A stretch of 64,000 nt of DNA from Oscillospiraceae bacterium (GTDB taxonomy: Bacteria; Bacillota; Clostridia; Oscillospirales; CAG-272). The notes below the pieces were generated by a model. It made no database searches. It saw only the letters and a list, made by a program, of their open reading frames with translations, and was not told where the DNA came from. The DNA lies in contig SVUA01000005.1 of the NCBI GenBank assembly GCA_015063485.1, forward strand, positions 1 through 64,000, in the 5' to 3' direction. Positions 27,142 to 36,522 of this stretch are shown piece after piece (the first letter of the stretch is position 1; the number at the start of each line of letters is the position of its first letter). The position numbers were made by a program, and so were the translations under genes.

Positions 27142-28911
27142 TTAGTCGTCAGTTGAAGCAAATTGACTTTGATAAAGCTCCGAGTAGAAGCCTTTTTGCG
27201 CAAGAAGCGTGTTATGGTCGCCTTGCTCAATGATATTTCCGTCCTTCATAACGAGTATCATATCGGCTTCCTTTATCGTTGACAGACGGTGTGCGACAAT
27301 AAAGCTCGTACGTCCCTCCATCATGGTTGAGAAAGCCTTTTGAATACGTATCTCGGTTCGGGTGTCAATAGACGAGGTCGCCTCGTCAAGAATAAGCATT
27401 TCAGGGAGACAAAGCATAACGCGCGCAATACACAAAAGCTGTTTTTGACCTTGCGAGAGCGTACCGCCGTCCTCTCCGATGACTGTATCATAGCCCTTCG
27501 GAAGTCTTCTTATAAAGCTGTGCGCGTGAGCAGCCTTTGCCGCCGCGATTATTTCGTCCTCTGAGGCGTCGGGGTCACCGAACGCGATATTGTCGCGTAT
27601 AGTTCCCGCGCAAAGCCAAGTGTCCTGAAGCACCATGCCGTAAGAGCGTCTCAACTGACTGCGCGGAATATCACGTATATCGACACCGTCAAGCTTTATC
27701 GCACCTTCCTTTACGTCATAGAAGCGCATGAGAAGATTTATAAGAGTGGTCTTTCCGCAGCCCGTCGGACCGACGATAGCTATGTGCTGACCTGCGCCAA
27801 CCTTAAGATTGAAATTACGTATAAGAGGACGGTCCTCAGTGTAAGAGAATGAAACGTTTTCAAATTCAATATTTCCGTGCGCTTTTTCGATGGTTTCTTT
27901 TTCGCTATCGGGAGATTGTATCGGAGATTCGATAAGCTCAAATACTCTTGAAGCGCACGCAAGCGCGTTTTGAAGCTCGGTAACTACTCCCGAAATTTCA
28001 TTAAAGGGTTTCGTATATTGCGTTGAGTATGAAAGGAAGCTTGAGAGCATACCAACGGTTATCATCGAACTGCCGTTTATATAAAGGAGAGCACCCGTAA
28101 ACGCGACGAACGCGTAAACGAGTCCGTTTACAAATCGCGTAGATGGGTTTGTAATGGACGAAAAGAATACCGCACGCAGAGAAGCCTTTGAAAGCTTATT
28201 GTTTATATCGTCAAACTTTTCTTGTATCTCATCTTCTTGACCGAAAGCAACGACGAGCTTGTGGTTGCCGACGGCTTCGTCTATAAGCGAGGTCTGCTCA
28301 CCTTGAAGCTCGGAACGAAGCTTGAACATAGAGTAGGTCTTTTTTGCGATAAACGCCGCAACAAAGAGAGACAGAGGAGTAACGAGAACGACGATAAGAG
28401 TGATGGGCGGAGATATAATTACCATGAAAACAAGAGTAACGATAATAGTCATAACTCCGCTGAAGAACTGCGTAAAGCCCATCAGAAGTCCGTCGGAGAA
28501 TTGGTCGACGTCGGTGATAACACGGCTGACTATCTCACCCGAGTGGCGAGAATCAATGAATGAAATAGGGAACTGCTGGATTCGAACAAAAGCTTCTTTT
28601 CGAATATTTTTTACGATCCCGTACGTCATTTTGTTGTTTAAAACGTTTATTATCCATTGAGCTAAAGCGGTTATCAGAATACATACACCTATTTTTACAA
28701 GTATAGCAGAAACACCGTCAAAATCAACTCTTCCTTTGTCAATACAAAGGTCGATAGCCTGTCCGACAAGAATTGGGATATAAAGCGTAAGAGCTACCGA
28801 TAGAGCGGTGAGTAAAAGAGAGACGGCAAAATGTAAGCGATATATCTTGAGGTATTTCAAGACCTTGAGGAAGGTCTTTACAGAGCCTTTGTTAGCATTT
28901 TTCTTTTTCAT
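27142..28911 (-). CDS. ABC exporter half-transporter, second subunit
   Basis: This 589-residue half-transporter has a six-helix ABC membrane domain (about 25-310) fused to an ATPase with Walker A VGPTGCGKTT (about 384), signature LSQGQKQ (about 482), and Walker B MLILDEATSSID (about 502). The start is set at 28911: a GGAGGTG site lies 7-8 bases upstream and ATGA overlaps the stop of the preceding subunit. The pair resembles heterodimeric multidrug or lipid exporters (BmrCD/MdlAB type). The signature of this subunit is LSQGQ rather than LSGGQ, common in such asymmetric pairs. The substrate is unknown. Confidence 0.92.
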   Translation of the reverse strand: MKKKNANKGSVKTFLKVLKYLKIYRLHFAVSLLLTALSVALTLYIPILVGQAIDLCIDKGRVDFDGVSAILVKIGVCILITALAQWIINVLNNKMTYGIVKNIRKEAFVRIQQFPISFIDSRHSGEIVSRVITDVDQFSDGLLMGFTQFFSGVMTIIVTLVFMVIISPPITLIVVLVTPLSLFVAAFIAKKTYSMFKLRSELQGEQTSLIDEAVGNHKLVVAFGQEDEIQEKFDDINNKLSKASLRAVFFSSITNPSTRFVNGLVYAFVAFTGALLYINGSSMITVGMLSSFLSYSTQYTKPFNEISGVVTELQNALACASRVFELIESPIQSPDSEKETIEKAHGNIEFENVSFSYTEDRPLIRNFNLKVGAGQHIAIVGPTGCGKTTLINLLMRFYDVKEGAIKLDGVDIRDIPRSQLRRSYGMVLQDTWLCAGTIRDNIAFGDPDASEDEIIAAAKAAHAHSFIRRLPKGYDTVIGEDGGTLSQGQKQLLCIARVMLCLPEMLILDEATSSIDTRTEIRIQKAFSTMMEGRTSFIVAHRLSTIKEADMILVMKDGNIIEQGDHNTLLAQKGFYSELYQSQFASTDD

Positions 28912-30641
28912 TTGCTGCTCACCTCCTCGGGAAATTGAGAGCGATATATCTCTCGATAGATCTCGCAATTCTCAAGAAGCTCCTCGTGAGTACCTATGCC
29001 TTCGACCATACCGTCATCGAGAACTATAATGGTATCGGCGTGAAGTATAGATGAGGTCCTTTGCGATACGATAAAGGTAGTTGGGGCATAGTTGAGCGAT
29101 TTAAGAGCCTTTCTCAAGCTTGCCTCTGTCGCATAATCAAGAGCGGAAGCCGAGTCGTCGAGAATAAGTATCTGCGGCTTCTTAACAAGCGCGCGGGCAA
29201 TGGTAAGACGCTGACGCTGACCTCCCGAGAAATTTCGTCCGCTTTGAGCCACGGGCTCGTCAAGCTGACCGTCCTTTTCTTTAACGAATCCGTCGGCTTG
29301 AGCAAGAGAGAGAGCCTCCCAAAGCTCGTCCTCCGTGGCGTTTTCGTTGCCCCAGAGAAGATTTGAGCGGATAGTTCCTTTGAAAAGAAGAGCTTTTTGA
29401 GGAACGATACCCACGATATCCGTAAGTTCGTTCTTGTCATACAACGCCGTGTTTTTGCCGTTTATAAAAACGCTTCCGCTTGAAGGGGCGTAAAATGCGG
29501 GGATAAGGTTTATCAAGGTAGATTTACCCGAGCCCGTACCGCCTATGATACCGACGGTCTGTCCTTTTTTTACAGAGAATGATACGTCAGATATAGCCGC
29601 GTCTCCCGTCTCACTGTACTTAAAGGAAACGTTTTCAAAGCAGACCGAATTATCAACGTCAGCCTCGTCCTTTTCGGATACGCGAGGTGTGTCCGAGGGG
29701 GTGTCGAATATGTCGGATATCCTTCGCGCGCTTGCCATAGCCTTTGTCAGAGTAATAATAAGACTTGCAAGCTTTATAAGCTCGACAAGTATCTGCGACA
29801 TATAGTTGTAGAGCGCGACAAGCTCACCCTGCGAGATATTTCCGCTATTCACGCGAATAGCTCCAAAGTGGATAAGAAGAATGACCGCAAAGTTGATAAT
29901 TACGTATGTAAGAGGATTCATAAGCGCGGAGATACGTCCCGCGAATATCTGTATCTTGGTGAGAGCATCGTGCTTTTCATCAAATTCGGTGATTTCGTCT
30001 TGCTCTTTGTTGAACGCGCGGACTACGCGAGTGCCGCCGTAGTTGCCGCGAACCTTACCCACAACTCCGTCAAGTCTGCTCTGGGACTTTTTTAGTATCG
30101 GAATACTTACGAGCATTATCGCAAATACAACGATAGCGAGAACGGGAATCGTTACCGCGAATATGAGCGCAAGCTTTACGTCTATCGTAAACGCCATTAT
30201 CATAGCGCCGAAAACGATAAAAGGGGAGCGCATAAACAGACGGAGGAACATATTTATTCCCGTTTGAACGCTGTTTACGTCGCTTGACATTCTTGTAATG
30301 AGCGTCGACGTTCCTATCTTGTCGGTCATAGAGTAGCTAAAGCTCTGAATGTGAGAGAAAAGAGAGCTTCGAAGCTTTTCGGAAACGCCTACGGCGGCTT
30401 TTGCCGCAAAGAATTGAGCGCAGATAGCGCAAACGAGACCGATAATTCCGAGAGCGATAAGGACACCGCACATTAAAAATACGGTCTTCTTATCACCGCC
30501 GTTTTCCGCCATACCGACATCGATTATCTGCGCCACAGCAAGCGGAACGAAAAGCTCAAAAAGAGCCTCGAGACACTTGAAGAGCGGCGCAAGAATAGAT
30601 TCTTTTTTGTATCCCTTGAGGTAAAAAAGCAGTTTTTTCAA
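28908..30641 (-). CDS. ABC exporter half-transporter, first subunit
   Basis: The 577-residue protein has six membrane helices (about 15-300) and an ATPase with Walker A IGGTGSGKST (about 366), signature FSGGQRQR (about 466) and Walker B ILILDDSASALD (about 490). The residue after Walker B is Asp-Ser (DDSAS) where a catalytic Glu is usual (DEATS), so this subunit probably carries the degenerate ATP site of the heterodimer. The start codon is TTG, with GGAGG 4 bases upstream. It is first in the operon and overlaps the second subunit by 4 bases. Confidence 0.92.
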   Translation of the reverse strand: MKKLLFYLKGYKKESILAPLFKCLEALFELFVPLAVAQIIDVGMAENGGDKKTVFLMCGVLIALGIIGLVCAICAQFFAAKAAVGVSEKLRSSLFSHIQSFSYSMTDKIGTSTLITRMSSDVNSVQTGINMFLRLFMRSPFIVFGAMIMAFTIDVKLALIFAVTIPVLAIVVFAIMLVSIPILKKSQSRLDGVVGKVRGNYGGTRVVRAFNKEQDEITEFDEKHDALTKIQIFAGRISALMNPLTYVIINFAVILLIHFGAIRVNSGNISQGELVALYNYMSQILVELIKLASLIITLTKAMASARRISDIFDTPSDTPRVSEKDEADVDNSVCFENVSFKYSETGDAAISDVSFSVKKGQTVGIIGGTGSGKSTLINLIPAFYAPSSGSVFINGKNTALYDKNELTDIVGIVPQKALLFKGTIRSNLLWGNENATEDELWEALSLAQADGFVKEKDGQLDEPVAQSGRNFSGGQRQRLTIARALVKKPQILILDDSASALDYATEASLRKALKSLNYAPTTFIVSQRTSSILHADTIIVLDDGMVEGIGTHEELLENCEIYREIYRSQFPEEVSSK

Positions 30642-30699
30642 AATGACCTCCGTTTTGAAAAGAGAGTTTTATATAACCGGTAATTTTCTCAATCAGCGT

Positions 30700-30728
30700 A
30701 TTATACCATAAAATCTTTTATTTTTCAA
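30700..30728 (-). promoter_or_regulatory. Sigma-A promoter of the ABC exporter operon
   Basis: On the minus strand, -35 TTGAAA (30723-30728) and -10 TATAAT (30700-30705) are 17 bp apart, leaving a leader of about 55 bases. Confidence 0.75.
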
Positions 30729-30881
30729 CCTTTTTGAAAAATAAAAATAAAAAAGGAAAATATATAAGTTGTTCAATAACAAATATAGTCAAGTTATAAA
30801 TTTGTCAATTTGTAAATCGGAATTTACACCAAACGGTTAAAACATTATAAAACAATTGAAGTTAACGCGAAAAATACAATT

Positions 30882-30904
30882 TTGCGCAACTTTTGGTTGC
30901 ACAA
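30882..30904. promoter_or_regulatory. Inverted repeat, candidate operator of the HTH-mutase gene
   Basis: TTGCGCAAC-TTTTG-GTTGCACAA is a 23-bp inverted repeat with arms matching at 8 of 9 positions. It ends 19 bp before the -35 of the promoter for the HTH-phosphoglucosamine mutase gene. The rest of 30,729-30,881 is AT-rich with no gene. A role as binding site for the HTH domain is inference. Confidence 0.5.
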
Positions 30905-30923
30905 AATAAGTAATAAAAATTGG

Positions 30924-30951
30924 TTGACTTATTAAATATATTTGATATAAT
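30924..30951 (+). promoter_or_regulatory. Sigma-A promoter of the HTH-glmM / nagB pair
   Basis: -35 TTGACT (30924-30929) and -10 TATAAT (30946-30951) are 16 bp apart. The 5' leader is about 70 bases. Confidence 0.8.
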
Positions 30952-31028
30952 AATTATATCTGAATGCATTAGGGCAGCTTGTGCTTGAGAATTTTTATAA
31001 GACATATTAATATAAGTTGGAGGGCGTT

Positions 31029-32645
31029 ATGACAATAGGTGAAAAAATTGCACAACTCAGAACAGATGCAGGACTCTCACAGGAGGAGCTGGCTGAACGA
31101 ATTGATGTATCGCGTCAATCCATTTCCAAGTGGGAGATGAATCAATCAATGCCGCAAATAGATAAGGTTTTGGTATTATGCGAACTTTTTAATATTTCGG
31201 CTGATGAACTTTTACGTGATGAAATTGATTTGAAACGTAAAAATTCAAAGGAATGCGCTGCAAACAAATATTTCGGAACAGATGGTTTTCGTGGTGAGGC
31301 TAATATAAATCTTACGTCTATACATGCGTATAAGATCGGAAGATTTCTTGGATGGTACTATTCTCACAATGAAACAGATAAAGCGGCATACCGTCCGAAG
31401 ATCGTGATCGGAAAAGATACCAGACGCTCAAGCTATATGCTTGAATATTCGATCGTTGCAGGAATTACGGCATCCGGTGCGGACGCTTATATGCTGCACG
31501 TTACGACAACGCCGAGCGTTTCATACGTAACGAAACAAGATGATTTTGATTGCGGGATCATGATCACCGCATCTCATAATCCGTTTTATGATAACGGCAT
31601 TAAAATTATCAACCGTTACGGCGAAAAGCTCGACGATTCTATGACAGCGCTTATAGAGGCATATCTCGATGGAGATATGAATACATTAGGAATTTCGCAG
31701 GATGATATTCCGTTTGCAAAACGTGAAAAAATAGGTCGTATCGTTGATTATGTTTCGGGCAGAAATCGTTATATCGGATATTTGATCTCTCTTGCCTCAA
31801 ATTCTTATAAAAAATTAAGAATTGGAATTGACTGTGCGAATGGAGCTTCATGGATGATTGCCAGAAGTGTGTTTGGCGCTCTTGGCGCACAAATGTTGGT
31901 TATTGGTGATGAGCCGGATGGACTTAACATAAATAACGGTTTTGGTTCTACTCATATTAAAAATCTGTGTTCTCTTGTTAAAGAGAAACATCTTGATTTC
32001 GGATTTGCGTTTGACGGGGATTGCGATAGGTGTATAGCCGTAGACGGCAACGGAAATATTGTGGACGGCGATGTAATAATGTATATTCTCGCCAAGCGTT
32101 TGAAATCGAGGGGAATGCTTAACAATAATACTGTTGTAGCAACAGTGATGTCCAACAGCGGTTTTATCAACAGTCTTAACGAGGCGGGAATTAGCTGCAA
32201 GCAAACAACGGTTGGAGATCGCTTTGTATATGAATGTATGCAAAATAACAATTATAGTCTTGGAGGAGAGCAATCAGGTCATATAATACTTAAGAAGTAC
32301 GCAACAACTGGTGACGGATTGCTTACAGCGATTATGATTTGTGAGGAGATATGTGATACAAAGCTTTCGCTTGCAGAACTTGCTTCTCCTGTAAAATTGT
32401 ATCCACAGTATACAAAAAACGTACGAGTTAAAAACAAAGCGGCAGTATTTAAGGATGATAATGTGCTTGCGGAAGTTGCAGAGGTAGAAAAGCTTATAGC
32501 AGGTAACGGAAGAATACTTCTCAGACAAAGCGGAACAGAGCCTGTTGTTCGAGTGATGTTAGAGTGTGAAACCGAAGCAAAGTGCCAAGAATATGCCGAT
32601 AGAGTTGTTGAGGTTATCTTAAAAGGCGGACATGGCGCAGAATAA
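31029..32645 (+). CDS. XRE helix-turn-helix domain fused to a phosphoglucosamine mutase (GlmM-like)
   Basis: The 538-residue protein joins two families. Residues 1-65 are an XRE HTH: IGEKIAQLRTDAGLSQEELA then VSRQSISKWEMNQSMP, typical of Cro/CI-type DNA-binding domains. From about residue 80 it is an intact phosphohexomutase: YFGTDGFRGE (81-90), the phosphoserine loop TASHNP (S182), metal loop DGDCDR (about 330), sugar loop GEQSGH (about 413, the GlmM form) and phosphate-binding RQSGTEP (about 500). GlmM interconverts glucosamine-6-P and glucosamine-1-P for UDP-GlcNAc synthesis. The start is the ATG with GGAGGG about 6 bases upstream; both domains are in one uninterrupted frame. nagB follows. 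The protein may couple amino-sugar phosphate levels to gene control; that is inference. Confidence 0.85.
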   Translation: MTIGEKIAQLRTDAGLSQEELAERIDVSRQSISKWEMNQSMPQIDKVLVLCELFNISADELLRDEIDLKRKNSKECAANKYFGTDGFRGEANINLTSIHAYKIGRFLGWYYSHNETDKAAYRPKIVIGKDTRRSSYMLEYSIVAGITASGADAYMLHVTTTPSVSYVTKQDDFDCGIMITASHNPFYDNGIKIINRYGEKLDDSMTALIEAYLDGDMNTLGISQDDIPFAKREKIGRIVDYVSGRNRYIGYLISLASNSYKKLRIGIDCANGASWMIARSVFGALGAQMLVIGDEPDGLNINNGFGSTHIKNLCSLVKEKHLDFGFAFDGDCDRCIAVDGNGNIVDGDVIMYILAKRLKSRGMLNNNTVVATVMSNSGFINSLNEAGISCKQTTVGDRFVYECMQNNNYSLGGEQSGHIILKKYATTGDGLLTAIMICEEICDTKLSLAELASPVKLYPQYTKNVRVKNKAAVFKDDNVLAEVAEVEKLIAGNGRILLRQSGTEPVVRVMLECETEAKCQEYADRVVEVILKGGHGAE

Positions 32646-32702
32646 AAATGGAATTAAATGAGATTTTTAAAGGATATAAAAAATATAACGGGGAAAATTT
32701 AT

Positions 32703-33413
32703 ATGAAATTTATTAAAGCAGACACGTATGAGGAACTTAGTAAAATAGCGGCAAATATTATCGCTTCTCAGGTGATAATGAAGCCCGATTGTGTTTTGGG
32801 GCTCGCGACAGGATCGTCACCTTTAGGAACATATGCAAATCTTGCGAAAATGTATGAGGCAGGAGATTTGGATTTTTCAAATGTTACAACGGTAAATCTT
32901 GACGAATACGCAGGGCTTGACGGGACTCACGAGCAAAGCTACAGATATTTTATGAACCGAAATCTTTTTTCTAAGATCAATGTAGATATAGAGAAAACTT
33001 ACGTACCGAACGGCATCGCATCGGATCTTGTAAAAGAAGGCTTGAATTATGATGAGTTGATCCAAAGCCTTGGAGGAATAGATCTGCAACTTCTTGGAAT
33101 AGGAGTAGATGGGCACATAGGATTTAACGAGCCTGACAGTGTATTTGTTGCGGAAACTCATCCTGTAAAGCTTGATGAATCAACGATCGAAGCCAATGCG
33201 CGTTTCTTTGCTACAAAGGAAGACGTTCCGTCTCAGGCGATCACGATGGGTATGCGTTCAATCATGCAAGCAAGAAAAATTCTTCTCGTAGCAAACGGAA
33301 AGAACAAAAAAGCTATATTGGAAAGAGCAATAAACGGTCCTATAGATCCGATGGTTCCGGCTTCAATTTTACAACTTCATTCAGATGTAACGGTGATTTT
33401 TTCTGAGATATAA
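32703..33413 (+). CDS. nagB: Glucosamine-6-phosphate deaminase
   Basis: NagB converts glucosamine-6-phosphate to fructose-6-phosphate and ammonia. The 236-residue form starts MKFIKADTYEEL, as in the family; 15 extra upstream residues are dropped. Active-site elements are present: LGLATGSSPLGTY (phosphate loop, about 32-44), NLDEYAGL (D67), GVDGHIGFNEP (D136, H138, E143). A GGGGA site lies about 10 bases upstream. It follows the HTH-GlmM fusion by 57 bases, so the pair handles the glucosamine-6-P branch point: one enzyme sends it to cell-wall precursor, the other to glycolysis. Confidence 0.95.
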   Translation: MKFIKADTYEELSKIAANIIASQVIMKPDCVLGLATGSSPLGTYANLAKMYEAGDLDFSNVTTVNLDEYAGLDGTHEQSYRYFMNRNLFSKINVDIEKTYVPNGIASDLVKEGLNYDELIQSLGGIDLQLLGIGVDGHIGFNEPDSVFVAETHPVKLDESTIEANARFFATKEDVPSQAITMGMRSIMQARKILLVANGKNKKAILERAINGPIDPMVPASILQLHSDVTVIFSEI

Positions 33414-33430
33414 GCATGTAACCATAATTG

Positions 33431-33466
33431 AAAAAGCACATCTGCATTGCAGATGTGCTTTTTTTG
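33431..33466. terminator. Bidirectional terminator between nagB and tRNA-Val
   Basis: AAAAAGCACATCTGCA and TGCAGATGTGCTTTTT form a near-perfect stem with a T run on both strands. Confidence 0.85.
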
Positions 33467-33541
33467 GTGGAGACAACTGGAATCGAACCAGTGACCTCAT
33501 GCATGTCAAGCATGCACTCTAACCAGCTGAGCTATGCCTCC
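33465..33541 (-). tRNA. tRNA-Val, anticodon GAC
   Basis: The 77-nt minus-strand sequence folds as a tRNA: acceptor GGAGGCA with TGTCTCC, D arm GCTCAGCTGGTTAGAGT, anticodon stem CATGC/GCATG with loop TTGACAT (anticodon GAC), T arm CTGGTTCGATTCCAG, encoded CCA. It reads GUC and GUU. Confidence 0.93.
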
Positions 33542-33553
33542 GTAACGTGTGAT

Positions 33554-33582
33554 ATTATATCACACTTTTTTTATAAATGCAA
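33554..33582 (-). promoter_or_regulatory. Promoter of tRNA-Val(GAC)
   Basis: On the minus strand, -35 TTGCAT (33577-33582) and -10 TATAAT (33554-33559) are 17 bp apart, 13 bp from the tRNA. Confidence 0.8.
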
Positions 33583-33612
33583 TACTTTTTAGAAAAAATA
33601 TTGCTAAATTTG

Positions 33613-33641
33613 TTGAAAAAATTATGGTTATATGATAAAAT
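33613..33641 (+). promoter_or_regulatory. Promoter of the GH78-like gene
   Basis: -35 TTGAAA (33613-33618) and -10 TAAAAT (33636-33641) are 17 bp apart. The leader is about 35 bases. Confidence 0.65.
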
Positions 33642-33680
33642 AATTGCGAATTAATAAAATCATAGAAAAGGATCGCTTTT

Positions 33681-35693
33681 ATGGCACATCAATTTTTCGG
33701 CAAATGGATTTCAAATGATATTCTTGCTTCTCTTGAGCCTCGTAACGTTTTTCATAGACAGCTCCAAAAAGTTTCGTTGGATTGTTCGGAGTACATAAAT
33801 CAACATATTTTATTCAGAAAAAAGTTCGATTTAAAAAATGTGTCTCAAAACGCAAAAATTTATATTTCGGCAGACGATTACTACAAGCTTTACATAAACG
33901 GTAATTTCGTGGCGCAAGGTCCGTCACCCTCTTATCATTTTCAATACAATTACAACGAAATAGATATTGGGAAGTATTTGAAAAACGGGGAAAATCTTAT
34001 AGCTGTTCATACACTTTATCAAGGACTTATAAACCGCGTATGGCAGAGCGGAGATCTTCGCCACGGTCTTATATGCGATATCGTAGTTGACGGTTCGGTC
34101 ATTTTGTCAAGCGGAGAGGATTTTCTTGTAAAAACTCATTCAGCGTATACCGAGATGGGTGTTTGCGGCTATAAAACGCAATTTTTAGAGCGTTACGATA
34201 GCAGTGCGTCGGAGGTTGGATTCGAAAAAGTCGACTTTGACGACAGTACTTGGAAAAACGCAAGTATTTGCCATTTTGACGACCACGTATTGACCGAGCA
34301 AAAAAGCTCCATGCTCGAGTTTGAGGTTATACCTCCCAAGCAAACACGAGTTGAGGGGAATCGAATGTTTTTTGATTTTGGCTCAAACTACGTTGGATAT
34401 CTTGACGTAACAGCGACAGGACAGAGCGGAGATACAATAACCGTTCGTTGCGCGCAGGAGCTGAACGACGACGGCTCTTTGCGCTACGAGCTACGAGCAA
34501 ACTGTGTTTACGAGGAAGAGTGGATACTTTCATCGGGTAAAAGTACGCTCGATTGGTTTGATTATAAATCCTTCCGCTACGTTGAGCTTATTCTTCCTGA
34601 CAACGTCATAATATACAACTGCGCACTTCGCGCAAGGAGATATCCTTTTGCGTTGAAGACTACACCCAAAAGGGAATATTTGAAAGATCCTGAAATGATG
34701 AAGATATGGGAGCTTTGCGTTAATACCCAAAAATACGGTGTGCAAGAGGTCATTCAGGACTGTATGGAGCGCGAAAAGGGATTCTACCTTGGTGACGGCT
34801 GTTATACTGCGCTCACACACATGGCTTTAACCCATGACGATTCCATGGTGCGAAAGCTTATTGACGATGCTTTTGCAACGAGCTTTATAACCGATACGCT
34901 CGTGACGTGTATGGACTGCTCTTTTATGCAAGAGATAGCAGAATTTCCGTTGATACTCGTCAGCCTCGTATTTTGGCATTACCGCTTTACGGGAGATAAA
35001 AAATATCTTCAAACAAATTACAAAAAAGTAACAGCTTTGCTTGATGCATACCGCAGAGATTACGAGAAAGACGGCTTGTTAAGAAATTTGGATAAATGGT
35101 GCGTTGTGGAATGGCCCAAAAATTTCCAACACGGCTACGACGTGGATATCCGTGAGGGTAAAGTTTGTGAGCAGGCTCACGTTTCCATAAATGCGTACTA
35201 TATTAACGCTATCCGTACTGCAAATAAGATGGCGCAGATATTAGGTAAAGACGATTACCGCGATGAAACGCCTCTTCTCAATGCGTTTTATAACGCCTTT
35301 TACGATGCAGAGTGTAAACTGTTTTGCGACGCTGAAAATACCAAGCATAAAAGCTTGGTCGGCAATAGCTTCGTTTATGCCTTTGACCTTTGCCCTAACA
35401 AAGAGGCAAAGCAAAATATCCTTGATATGCTCGACGAAAACGGCATAGACACACTGTCTCTTTTCTGCACGTTCCCGATCTTAATGGGACTCGCCAAGGA
35501 CGGTGACGAGGTTCGTATCAAGGAGGCGCTTTTGCATGACGGCGCATGGAAGCGAATGCTCAAAGAAGAGGCAACAACAACCTTTGAGGGCTGGGGCAAG
35601 GAAACCAAGTGGAACACCTCGTTATTCCATTTGACCATGAGCTATGCGGCGCTTTTTATTGCCGACGTTGACCTGAAAGAGTTGTTTTCTTGA
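33681..35693 (+). CDS. Alpha-L-rhamnosidase-like glycoside hydrolase (GH78 family)
   Basis: The 670-residue protein has no signal peptide and is probably cytoplasmic. The N-terminal half has GH78 beta-sandwich domains: AKIYISADDYYKLYINGNFV (about 57-76, the rhamnosidase N domain) and TRVEGNRMFFDFGSNYVGYL (about 220-240). The (alpha/alpha)6 catalytic domain starts near 330, with VIQDCMEREKGFYLGDG (about 355-371), a variant of the usual DCPQRDE motif, and TTTFEGWGKETKWNTSLFH (about 632), where the general-base Glu is expected. It would remove rhamnose or a related sugar from imported glycans. The divergent acid motif leaves the sugar uncertain. A phosphodiesterase gene follows in the same direction. 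Confidence 0.78.
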   Translation: MAHQFFGKWISNDILASLEPRNVFHRQLQKVSLDCSEYINQHILFRKKFDLKNVSQNAKIYISADDYYKLYINGNFVAQGPSPSYHFQYNYNEIDIGKYLKNGENLIAVHTLYQGLINRVWQSGDLRHGLICDIVVDGSVILSSGEDFLVKTHSAYTEMGVCGYKTQFLERYDSSASEVGFEKVDFDDSTWKNASICHFDDHVLTEQKSSMLEFEVIPPKQTRVEGNRMFFDFGSNYVGYLDVTATGQSGDTITVRCAQELNDDGSLRYELRANCVYEEEWILSSGKSTLDWFDYKSFRYVELILPDNVIIYNCALRARRYPFALKTTPKREYLKDPEMMKIWELCVNTQKYGVQEVIQDCMEREKGFYLGDGCYTALTHMALTHDDSMVRKLIDDAFATSFITDTLVTCMDCSFMQEIAEFPLILVSLVFWHYRFTGDKKYLQTNYKKVTALLDAYRRDYEKDGLLRNLDKWCVVEWPKNFQHGYDVDIREGKVCEQAHVSINAYYINAIRTANKMAQILGKDDYRDETPLLNAFYNAFYDAECKLFCDAENTKHKSLVGNSFVYAFDLCPNKEAKQNILDMLDENGIDTLSLFCTFPILMGLAKDGDEVRIKEALLHDGAWKRMLKEEATTTFEGWGKETKWNTSLFHLTMSYAALFIADVDLKELFS

Positions 35694-35748
35694 CTCTGTT
35701 TTTAAATAACATAAAGATACTAAACAAATGCGAAAGGAAGTGGCTTTT

Positions 35749-36522
35749 ATGAAAGAAAAAGTTATTCTTATATCTATTGACGGAATGCGTCCCGACGGAC
35801 TCAAGCAATGCGGAAATCCGTACCTTGCGGAGCTTGAAAAGCTTTGCACGTATACGTATGAGGCAAGATCTATGGAGCCGTCTGTAACATTTCCGTGCCA
35901 TTTTTCAATGACACACTCGGTTACACCTCAAAGACACGGTATACTTACTAATACTTATGTTCCGCAGGTGCGTCCCGTAACAGGCATTTTTGAAAAGATA
36001 AAAAGTTATGGCGGAGTATCCGCAATGTTTTACGGCTGGGAGCCGCTTCGCGATATCGCCATGCCCGGAACGCTTAAATTTGCTACTTATATCAATGCCT
36101 ACATGAAAGAAAGTAGTGACACCGCGCTTACTGACGAGGCGATTCGCGTTATAGAGGAAAACAAACCGAATTTTGCATTTTTGTATATGGTAGAGACCGA
36201 CGAAAAGGGAGGCCACGATAACGGCTGGATGAGTGAAGAATATCTTCGTAGGATAAATATAGCCATATCGAACGTCAAGCGTGTAATAGAAAAATTCGGG
36301 GACGAATATTCTGTTATTATAATGGCAGACCACGGCGGACACGACCGTTCGCACGGAAGTACACTTCCCGAGGATATGACTATACCGCTCTTCTTCTACG
36401 GATCTGTGTTTGAGGGCGGAAATGTCGTTGACGGCTTGTCGTTGCTTGATATCGCTCCTACTATTGCAAAGCTTTTGGATATCGAGCCCGAAGATGAATG
36501 GGAAGGCCATTCTATTATCTGA
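35749..36522 (+). CDS. Alkaline-phosphatase superfamily phosphodiesterase (nucleotide pyrophosphatase type)
   Basis: The 257-residue protein starts MKEKVILISIDGMRPD; AAAGGAAG lies upstream, and seven residues of the longer frame are dropped. Metal ligands and nucleophile are in order: Asp in ISIDGMRPD (about 10), the nucleophile Thr in EPSVTFPCHFSM (about 46), Asp/His in DEKGGHDNGW (about 157) and DHGGHDRSHG (about 195-204). Family members hydrolyse phosphodiester or phosphomonoester bonds of nucleotides or lipids. No signal peptide is seen. It lies 55 bases after the GH78 gene without a terminator, so the two may be co-expressed; the shared substrate is unknown. Confidence 0.85.
   Translation: MKEKVILISIDGMRPDGLKQCGNPYLAELEKLCTYTYEARSMEPSVTFPCHFSMTHSVTPQRHGILTNTYVPQVRPVTGIFEKIKSYGGVSAMFYGWEPLRDIAMPGTLKFATYINAYMKESSDTALTDEAIRVIEENKPNFAFLYMVETDEKGGHDNGWMSEEYLRRINIAISNVKRVIEKFGDEYSVIIMADHGGHDRSHGSTLPEDMTIPLFFYGSVFEGGNVVDGLSLLDIAPTIAKLLDIEPEDEWEGHSII

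Follow-up and report, generated by a model that had tools for sequence, protein, structure and literature searches.

The GlmM step is needed by bacteria that build a wall. In the Oscillospiraceae contig studied here, the GlmM protein carries an XRE helix-turn-helix (HTH) domain at its N terminus. Does this mutase also bind DNA, where would it bind, and what would the binding do? Our comparison makes it probable that HTH-GlmM is both a working phosphoglucosamine mutase and a repressor of its own UDP-GlcNAc operon. The binding, the repression rather than activation, the catalysis and any tuning by sugar phosphates are what we infer from sequences. Below, the window means the whole 64,000-nt stretch analysed.

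The fused protein and the palindrome before its gene

The fusion is a single open frame with its ATG at 31029 and its stop at 32643-32645, encoding an XRE HTH and a complete GlmM (Table 1). All four active-site loops are present, namely TASHNP (with S182), DGDCDR, GEQSGH and RQSGTEP, and with them the phosphoserine, metal, sugar and phosphate loops. The uninterrupted frame with four intact loops that the initial annotation described is thus borne out by the ORF and by its Pfam and NCBIfam TIGR01455 matches. With an enzyme and a DNA-binding domain assigned by Pfam to one chain, the window protein has the architecture of a trigger enzyme.

Table 1. Features of the HTH-glmM locus, in positions of the window
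Feature	Position	Strand	Basis
Candidate operator O1, GCAACTTTTGGTTGC	30886..30900		GCAACNNNNNGTTGC matches exactly nowhere else in the 1.97-Mb genome; conserved 5' of fused glmM
Candidate half-site O2, AATTGGTTGA	30918..30927	+	starts 32 bp after O1 start; overlaps -35 box
-35 box TTGACT	30924..30929	+	promoter scan, 11/12 matches; from consensus alone
-10 box TATAAT, TG before it	30946..30951	+	promoter scan
Ribosome-binding site GGAGG	31019..31023	+	read off the sequence
HTH-GlmM fusion gene, 538 aa	31029..32645	+	open frame; Pfam and NCBIfam; alignment of 59 homologous fusions of full or near-full length
XRE HTH domain, residues 1-65, SRQSISKWE at residues 28-36	31029..31223	+	HTH_3 at residues 7-61, 57.6 bits, cut-off 23 (Pfam)
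Variable linker, residues 66-79	31224..31265	+	mean pairwise identity 0.17; 9 to 25 residues elsewhere
GlmM part with four active-site loops	31266..32642	+	PGM_PMM I, II, III and IV between residues 80 and 528, each above cut-off (Pfam); TIGR01455 glmM, 500.7 bits, cut-off 447.55
nagB, 236 aa from likely start 32703	32703..33413	+	TIGR00502, 278.6 bits, cut-off 236.9

The window protein shares the four PGM domains and the active-site loops with bacterial GlmM (TIGR01455; solved relatives 7ojr, 3pdk and 6gyz) but adds the HTH and linker as residues 1-79, and the PDB GlmM chains align only from about residue 74-80. With the XRE (HTH_3) regulators, among which the ICEBs1 Xre regulator 7t8i has the nearest solved HTH, it shares residues 1-62 together with the SRQSISKWE helix. 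The partner of the HTH is here an essential enzyme, however, and not an oligomerisation or peptidase domain.

Among 58 aligned fusions, the HTH has a mean pairwise identity of 0.62 and its recognition region (residues 26-40) one of 0.77. The value is 0.67 in GlmM and 0.17 in the linker, whose length ranges over 9-25 residues. S28, R29, W35 and E36 are kept in 100%, and Q30, S33 and K34 in 97-98%. The HTH, with a conservation close to that of the enzyme, is by this measure under selection.

The fused protein is the sole TIGR01455 match in 34 of the 38 fused genomes searched, 12 of these 34 being at least 95% complete. Since no other GlmM is found in them, the fusion is probably the essential, catalytically active GlmM of most carriers. 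All four strict active-site motifs are kept in 48 of 59 fusions; the other 11 deviate from at least one, mostly by a single letter, with one protein truncated and one (G451) degenerate.

Two TIGR01455 matches occur in 4 of the 38 genomes (G000, which is the window genome, G012, G065 and G166). A search of the window genome for a second, stand-alone glmM, as suggested earlier, did find a canonical gene of 451 aa on contig C33. Contamination was considered for this contig and rejected, as its tetranucleotide correlation with the window is 0.81-0.89 against 0.75-0.85 among the window quarters. Its conserved 3.7-kb ABC-transporter pair has no copy of similar length elsewhere in the genome among the matches listed. 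C33 is probably native, short of proof.

The initial annotation proposed 30,850-30,960 as the stretch for DNA binding. It holds a conserved palindrome, O1, and a half-site, O2, over the -35 box, which together make a putative operator. The palindrome GCAAC(C/T)nnn(A/G)GTTGC was spotted by eye in the 59 fused upstream regions, which were also the first test set. Scored against GCAACC-n-GGTTGC with 10 of 12 or more taken as good, it is good in 53/59 fused regions and 1/54 unfused ones, while dinucleotide shuffles expect 0.8/59. Seven or eight of the 53 best matches fall outside the usual place. With the spacing of 3 and a position 85-180 nt upstream, the counts are 51/59 and 1/54. The sole unfused region with a good O1, that of G414, sits within the fused clade, as expected if O1 has been retained after a recent HTH loss.

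Named-genome loci served as a separate set that was not used in motif discovery; its clostridial fusions were less than 97% identical to the earlier ones, and three loci with less than 120 nt upstream were dropped. O1 at 10 or more is found in 22/25 clostridial fused, 4/11 Bacilli fused and 0/36 unfused loci, so that a good O1 is missing from 3/25 of the clostridial and 7/11 of the Bacilli fusions. The four Bacilli matches come from close relatives and lie about 30 nt before the ATG, not upstream of the promoter; no such palindrome was found at the remaining seven of the 11 Bacilli loci. One clostridial fusion (L219) follows the end of a glmS-like frame and is without O1 near its start. Its best palindrome (11/12) lies about 365 bp upstream, inside the glmS-like coding stretch, and was not counted.

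By a strict pattern, a second half-site resembling AGTTGGTTGA lies over the -35 box in 33/59 fused regions, and its distance from the O1 start is 30-33 bp in 32 of the 33. A combined O1 and O2 matrix scores 56/59 fused loci, these being the same sequences as in motif discovery and so not an independent sample. Only three independent pairs on supported tree branches bear on the association of HTH with O1 (sign test p 0.5), and the association may partly reflect shared descent.

The sign of the control and the place of NagB

GlmM is known to form a dimer (PMC6368335). The two N-terminal HTH domains of such a dimer, on their flexible linkers, would grip the palindrome O1. The same HTH-GlmM would also contact O2, about three helical turns on and overlapping the -35 box. 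At a high HTH-GlmM level, transcription of glmM and the downstream amino-sugar genes would be shut off. As the linker is free and variable, the enzyme level, more than the enzyme shape, would set the operator occupancy, and tuning by a ligand is possible.

The same binding could have the opposite sign, with HTH-GlmM bound upstream of the promoter to activate the operon. In the window, O1 sits 24 bp upstream of the -35 box, a position that activators use, and O2 would then be the contact proximal to RNA polymerase. However, O2 overlaps the -35 box itself, which makes repression the simpler reading, and the window promoter, with a -35/-10 spacing of 16 bp, is already close to consensus (11/12). 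In the four closely related Bacilli MAGs, O1 at about 30 nt before the start codon is where a repressor is expected. Moreover, an essential enzyme that activates its own gene would be difficult to keep in balance. Activation is thus an unlikely outcome of the binding.

The initial annotation placed nagB beside the fusion, and the TIGR00502 match confirms it in the window. Within the longest ORF the match begins only at residue 16, which makes 32703 the likely start rather than 32658. Beyond nagB lie a minus-strand tRNA (33468-33541) and then alpha-L-rhamnosidase-like and phosphodiesterase/sulfatase-fold proteins (33681-36522).

Elsewhere, the gene after fused glmM encodes a hexapeptide (GlmU-C-like) transferase in 40 of the 58 loci with a called next ORF. 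In the 31 genomes searched for bifunctional GlmU, no match exceeds the curated cut-off. In an operon-like block, nagB is one or two genes downstream in 9/59 fused loci, and glmS is nearby in 6/59. The order HTH-glmM, hexapeptide gene and nagB is seen in three of the four Bacilli loci inspected. The window locus is without the hexapeptide gene, a copy of which precedes the canonical glmM on C33.

In 34 of the 59 genomes, the window genome among them, no GlmS above cut-off was found. A NagB-family match is present in 33 of these 34 and in 17 of the 25 GlmS-bearing genomes (Fisher p 0.003, kinship ignored). With NagB counted only above cut-off, the numbers are 28/34 and 15/25 (p 0.078, kinship ignored), and GlmS and NagB as clean alternatives were rejected on these.

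The glmS ribozyme exerts feedback where UDP-GlcNAc synthesis is entered. One (RF00234, 83.5 bits) lies in the window genome at C33:15242-15416 (locus L070), directly 3' of the canonical glmM; it is not followed by a glmS gene, and the search of this genome found no glmS either. In G001, the order glmM, ribozyme and glmS is intact. The orphan ribozyme looks like the trace of a lost glmS. Near the fusion, from 28000 to 36000 of the window, no RF00234 match was found and the only RNA found is the tRNA. The feedback at the UDP-GlcNAc entry is the likeness predicted for the fusion, whereas the ribozyme is RNA-based and acts on glmS and the window system would be a protein control at glmM.

With no GlmS detected in the window genome, NagB may supply GlcN-6-P to GlmM and not compete for it. 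Akkermansia is also without GlmS, and PMC5902328 reports that its NagB is unable to make GlcN-6-P at physiological conditions and that GlcNAc is needed. The alternative for the window genome would be GlcNAc scavenging with a catabolic NagB, as described there for Akkermansia.

These observations bear on the switch that the initial annotation envisaged, in which a ligand or the phosphoserine state gates the DNA binding and thereby divides GlcN-6-P between GlmM for the wall and NagB for glycolysis. For it speak the nagB that follows in the window and in the 9/59 loci and the O1-O2 layout at free-standing nagB in two other genomes. However, nagB is not the usual neighbour of fused glmM, and the NagB-family match in 33/34 GlmS-less genomes fits a supplier equally well as a drain. 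The undetected glmS, with NagB possibly feeding GlmM, weakens the supposed competition further, and the variable linker of 9-25 residues argues against a tight coupling of the HTH to the active site. We consider this switch improbable.

Other sites and other readers of the palindrome

The pattern GCAACYNNNRGTTGC was searched across 60 genomes, 53 of them fused, and found at 62 sites, 37 at fused glmM and 25 elsewhere. The reversed control gives 14, so many of the 25 would be chance, and several fall within coding frames. Eight of the 25 adjoin XRE genes, most of which encode SRQ[AS]VSKWE-like helices. A further two are found at free-standing nagB (G015 and G477), and another two at Gfo/Idh-type genes. 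The last are oxidoreductase genes behind the palindrome (L298 in G504 and L299 in G439), and Gfo/Idh-like genes also occur near some glmM loci. A wide regulon was rejected, as one mismatch or fewer gives 41 forward matches and 46 in the reversed control in the window genome.

Counted among the eight XRE genes are two of another XRE-enzyme fusion, an HTH with an ADP-ribosylglycohydrolase (L282:1738-3363 in G012 and L284 in G025), with the palindrome 96 nt upstream. The L282 protein has 542 aa and matches PF03747 and PF01381.

G015 and G477 have the complete O1-O2-promoter layout at a free-standing nagB, and G139 has it at glmS. An O1-O2 score of at least 16 (null maximum 11.9) is reached by 3/33 free-standing nagB (G015, G477 and the weaker G591) and 1/14 glmS upstream regions (G139) in fused genomes; in other genomes the layout was found at 0/7 nagB and 0/3 glmS. 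On the 3/33 and 1/14, operators at free-standing nagB or glmS were rejected as a rule. The nagB on C34 of the window genome is over the 99% line at -0.1 and was not counted as a site.

Because other O1 sites adjoin XRE genes with similar helices, O1 is apparently a site for XRE proteins of this class. This supports the candidate binding by the GlmM-borne HTH and allows for cross-talk. It also fits another free-standing XRE regulator reading O1, with the HTH of GlmM being a leftover, a spacer or a protein contact, as the eight XRE genes among the 25 other sites would suggest. Against such a division stand the HTH, nearly as conserved as the enzyme and its recognition helix above all, the O1 that tracks the HTH and not glmM as such, and the exact O1 arms that occur once in the window genome, at the fusion gene. 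We give this regulator little chance.

Far less probable still is the palindrome acting as an RNA hairpin or terminator instead of a protein site. A scan does call it a terminator-like stem, on the minus strand. However, it lies upstream of the -35 box and outside the predicted transcript, and its arms are fixed in sequence. At positions 6 and 10, the sole pair that varies, base pairing is not maintained (CG 15, CA 14, TA 5, TG 4, others 2).

Descent of the fusion and its meaning

That the fusion is an assembly or gene-calling artefact, for which only the draft state of the window genome speaks (65 contigs, 87.2% complete, 5.61% contamination), is refuted by the recurrence of the same kind of fusion in many independent genomes. 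The suspected frameshift or join between the two domains is excluded by the same recurrence at full length, and the fusion is not confined to one contig. It is found at full length in 5/30 genomes of the genus, in 35/246 of the family, plus one truncated by a contig end, and in at least 31/394 of the order, the last being a lower bound from matches at E 1e-150 or better only. The 59 aligned proteins with HTH and PGM_PMM in one chain come from seven families of one order.

Among the best 80 of 590 matched stretches in named genomes, 40 are full fusions and one is cut at a contig end. Ruminant-gut MAGs with a Clostridia or Oscillospiraceae label make up most of the fused loci, and 12 loci bear the label Erysipelotrichaceae, Bacillales, Bacilli or Acholeplasmatales. 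The HTH-GlmM loci in MAGs labelled Bacilli are L220-L226, L230 and L232-L235. The taxonomic mapping suggested earlier thus gives seven families of one order and the Bacilli-labelled MAGs.

On a tree built from the GlmM part of 55 fused and 53 unfused rows, the fusion trait needs 6 changes compared with 36 in shuffles. The 12 Bacilli fusions form one clade amid the clostridial ones, so the pattern fits a single fusion event with later losses and a transfer into Bacilli, with the root and direction unproven. Unfused relatives within the fused clade (e.g. G009, G011 and G414) have their start a few residues N-terminal to the shared NKYFGTDGFRGE, in keeping with a loss of the HTH.

The fusion matched 59 plasmid records, all at less than 60% identity, and none of the five matches listed has the HTH, their alignments beginning at residue 71-80. 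PADLOC matches of the protein are to the HTH only. A GlmM-HTH fusion was not found among the open-licence PMC titles and abstracts listed, and it may be described elsewhere.

The enzymes BirA and PutA each repress genes of the pathway in which they work (PMC6978683, PMC8249747). PMC8249747 names five E. coli trigger enzymes, BirA, NadR, PepA, PutA and PyrH, and GlmM is not among these five. An enzyme with its own DNA-binding domain repressing its pathway operon, as in the BirA and PutA type (PMC8249747, PMC6978683), is what is predicted for HTH-GlmM, and so is PutA's essentially single target beside its own gene. HTH-GlmM differs in its enzyme family, its HTH class and its essential cell-wall step, so the likeness is functional and no homology is claimed. 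Of the moonlighting or trigger enzyme first proposed, what now reads best is a bifunctional enzyme that binds DNA, resting on the conserved HTH and the candidate operator.

A bolder and doubtful extension, for these Clostridia and Bacilli of the gut, is that the UDP-GlcNAc feedback has moved from the glmS ribozyme to GlmM, which would have captured an XRE domain and an operator and become a ligand-sensing repressor of a small operon. In GlmS-less species, an aminating NagB would then be the first enzyme of this small operon or of a second operon with the same operator.

In summary, HTH-GlmM is a real domain fusion of wide occurrence, and the comparative evidence that it autoregulates is strong. 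The candidate operator is defined well enough for one gel-shift or reporter experiment. If the autoregulation is true, dozens of gut species would possess a GlmM acting as its own transcription factor, which would add a new trigger enzyme to cell-wall synthesis. It would also bear on the control of the amino-sugar supply in bacteria that lack glmS and hence the usual role of the glmS ribozyme.
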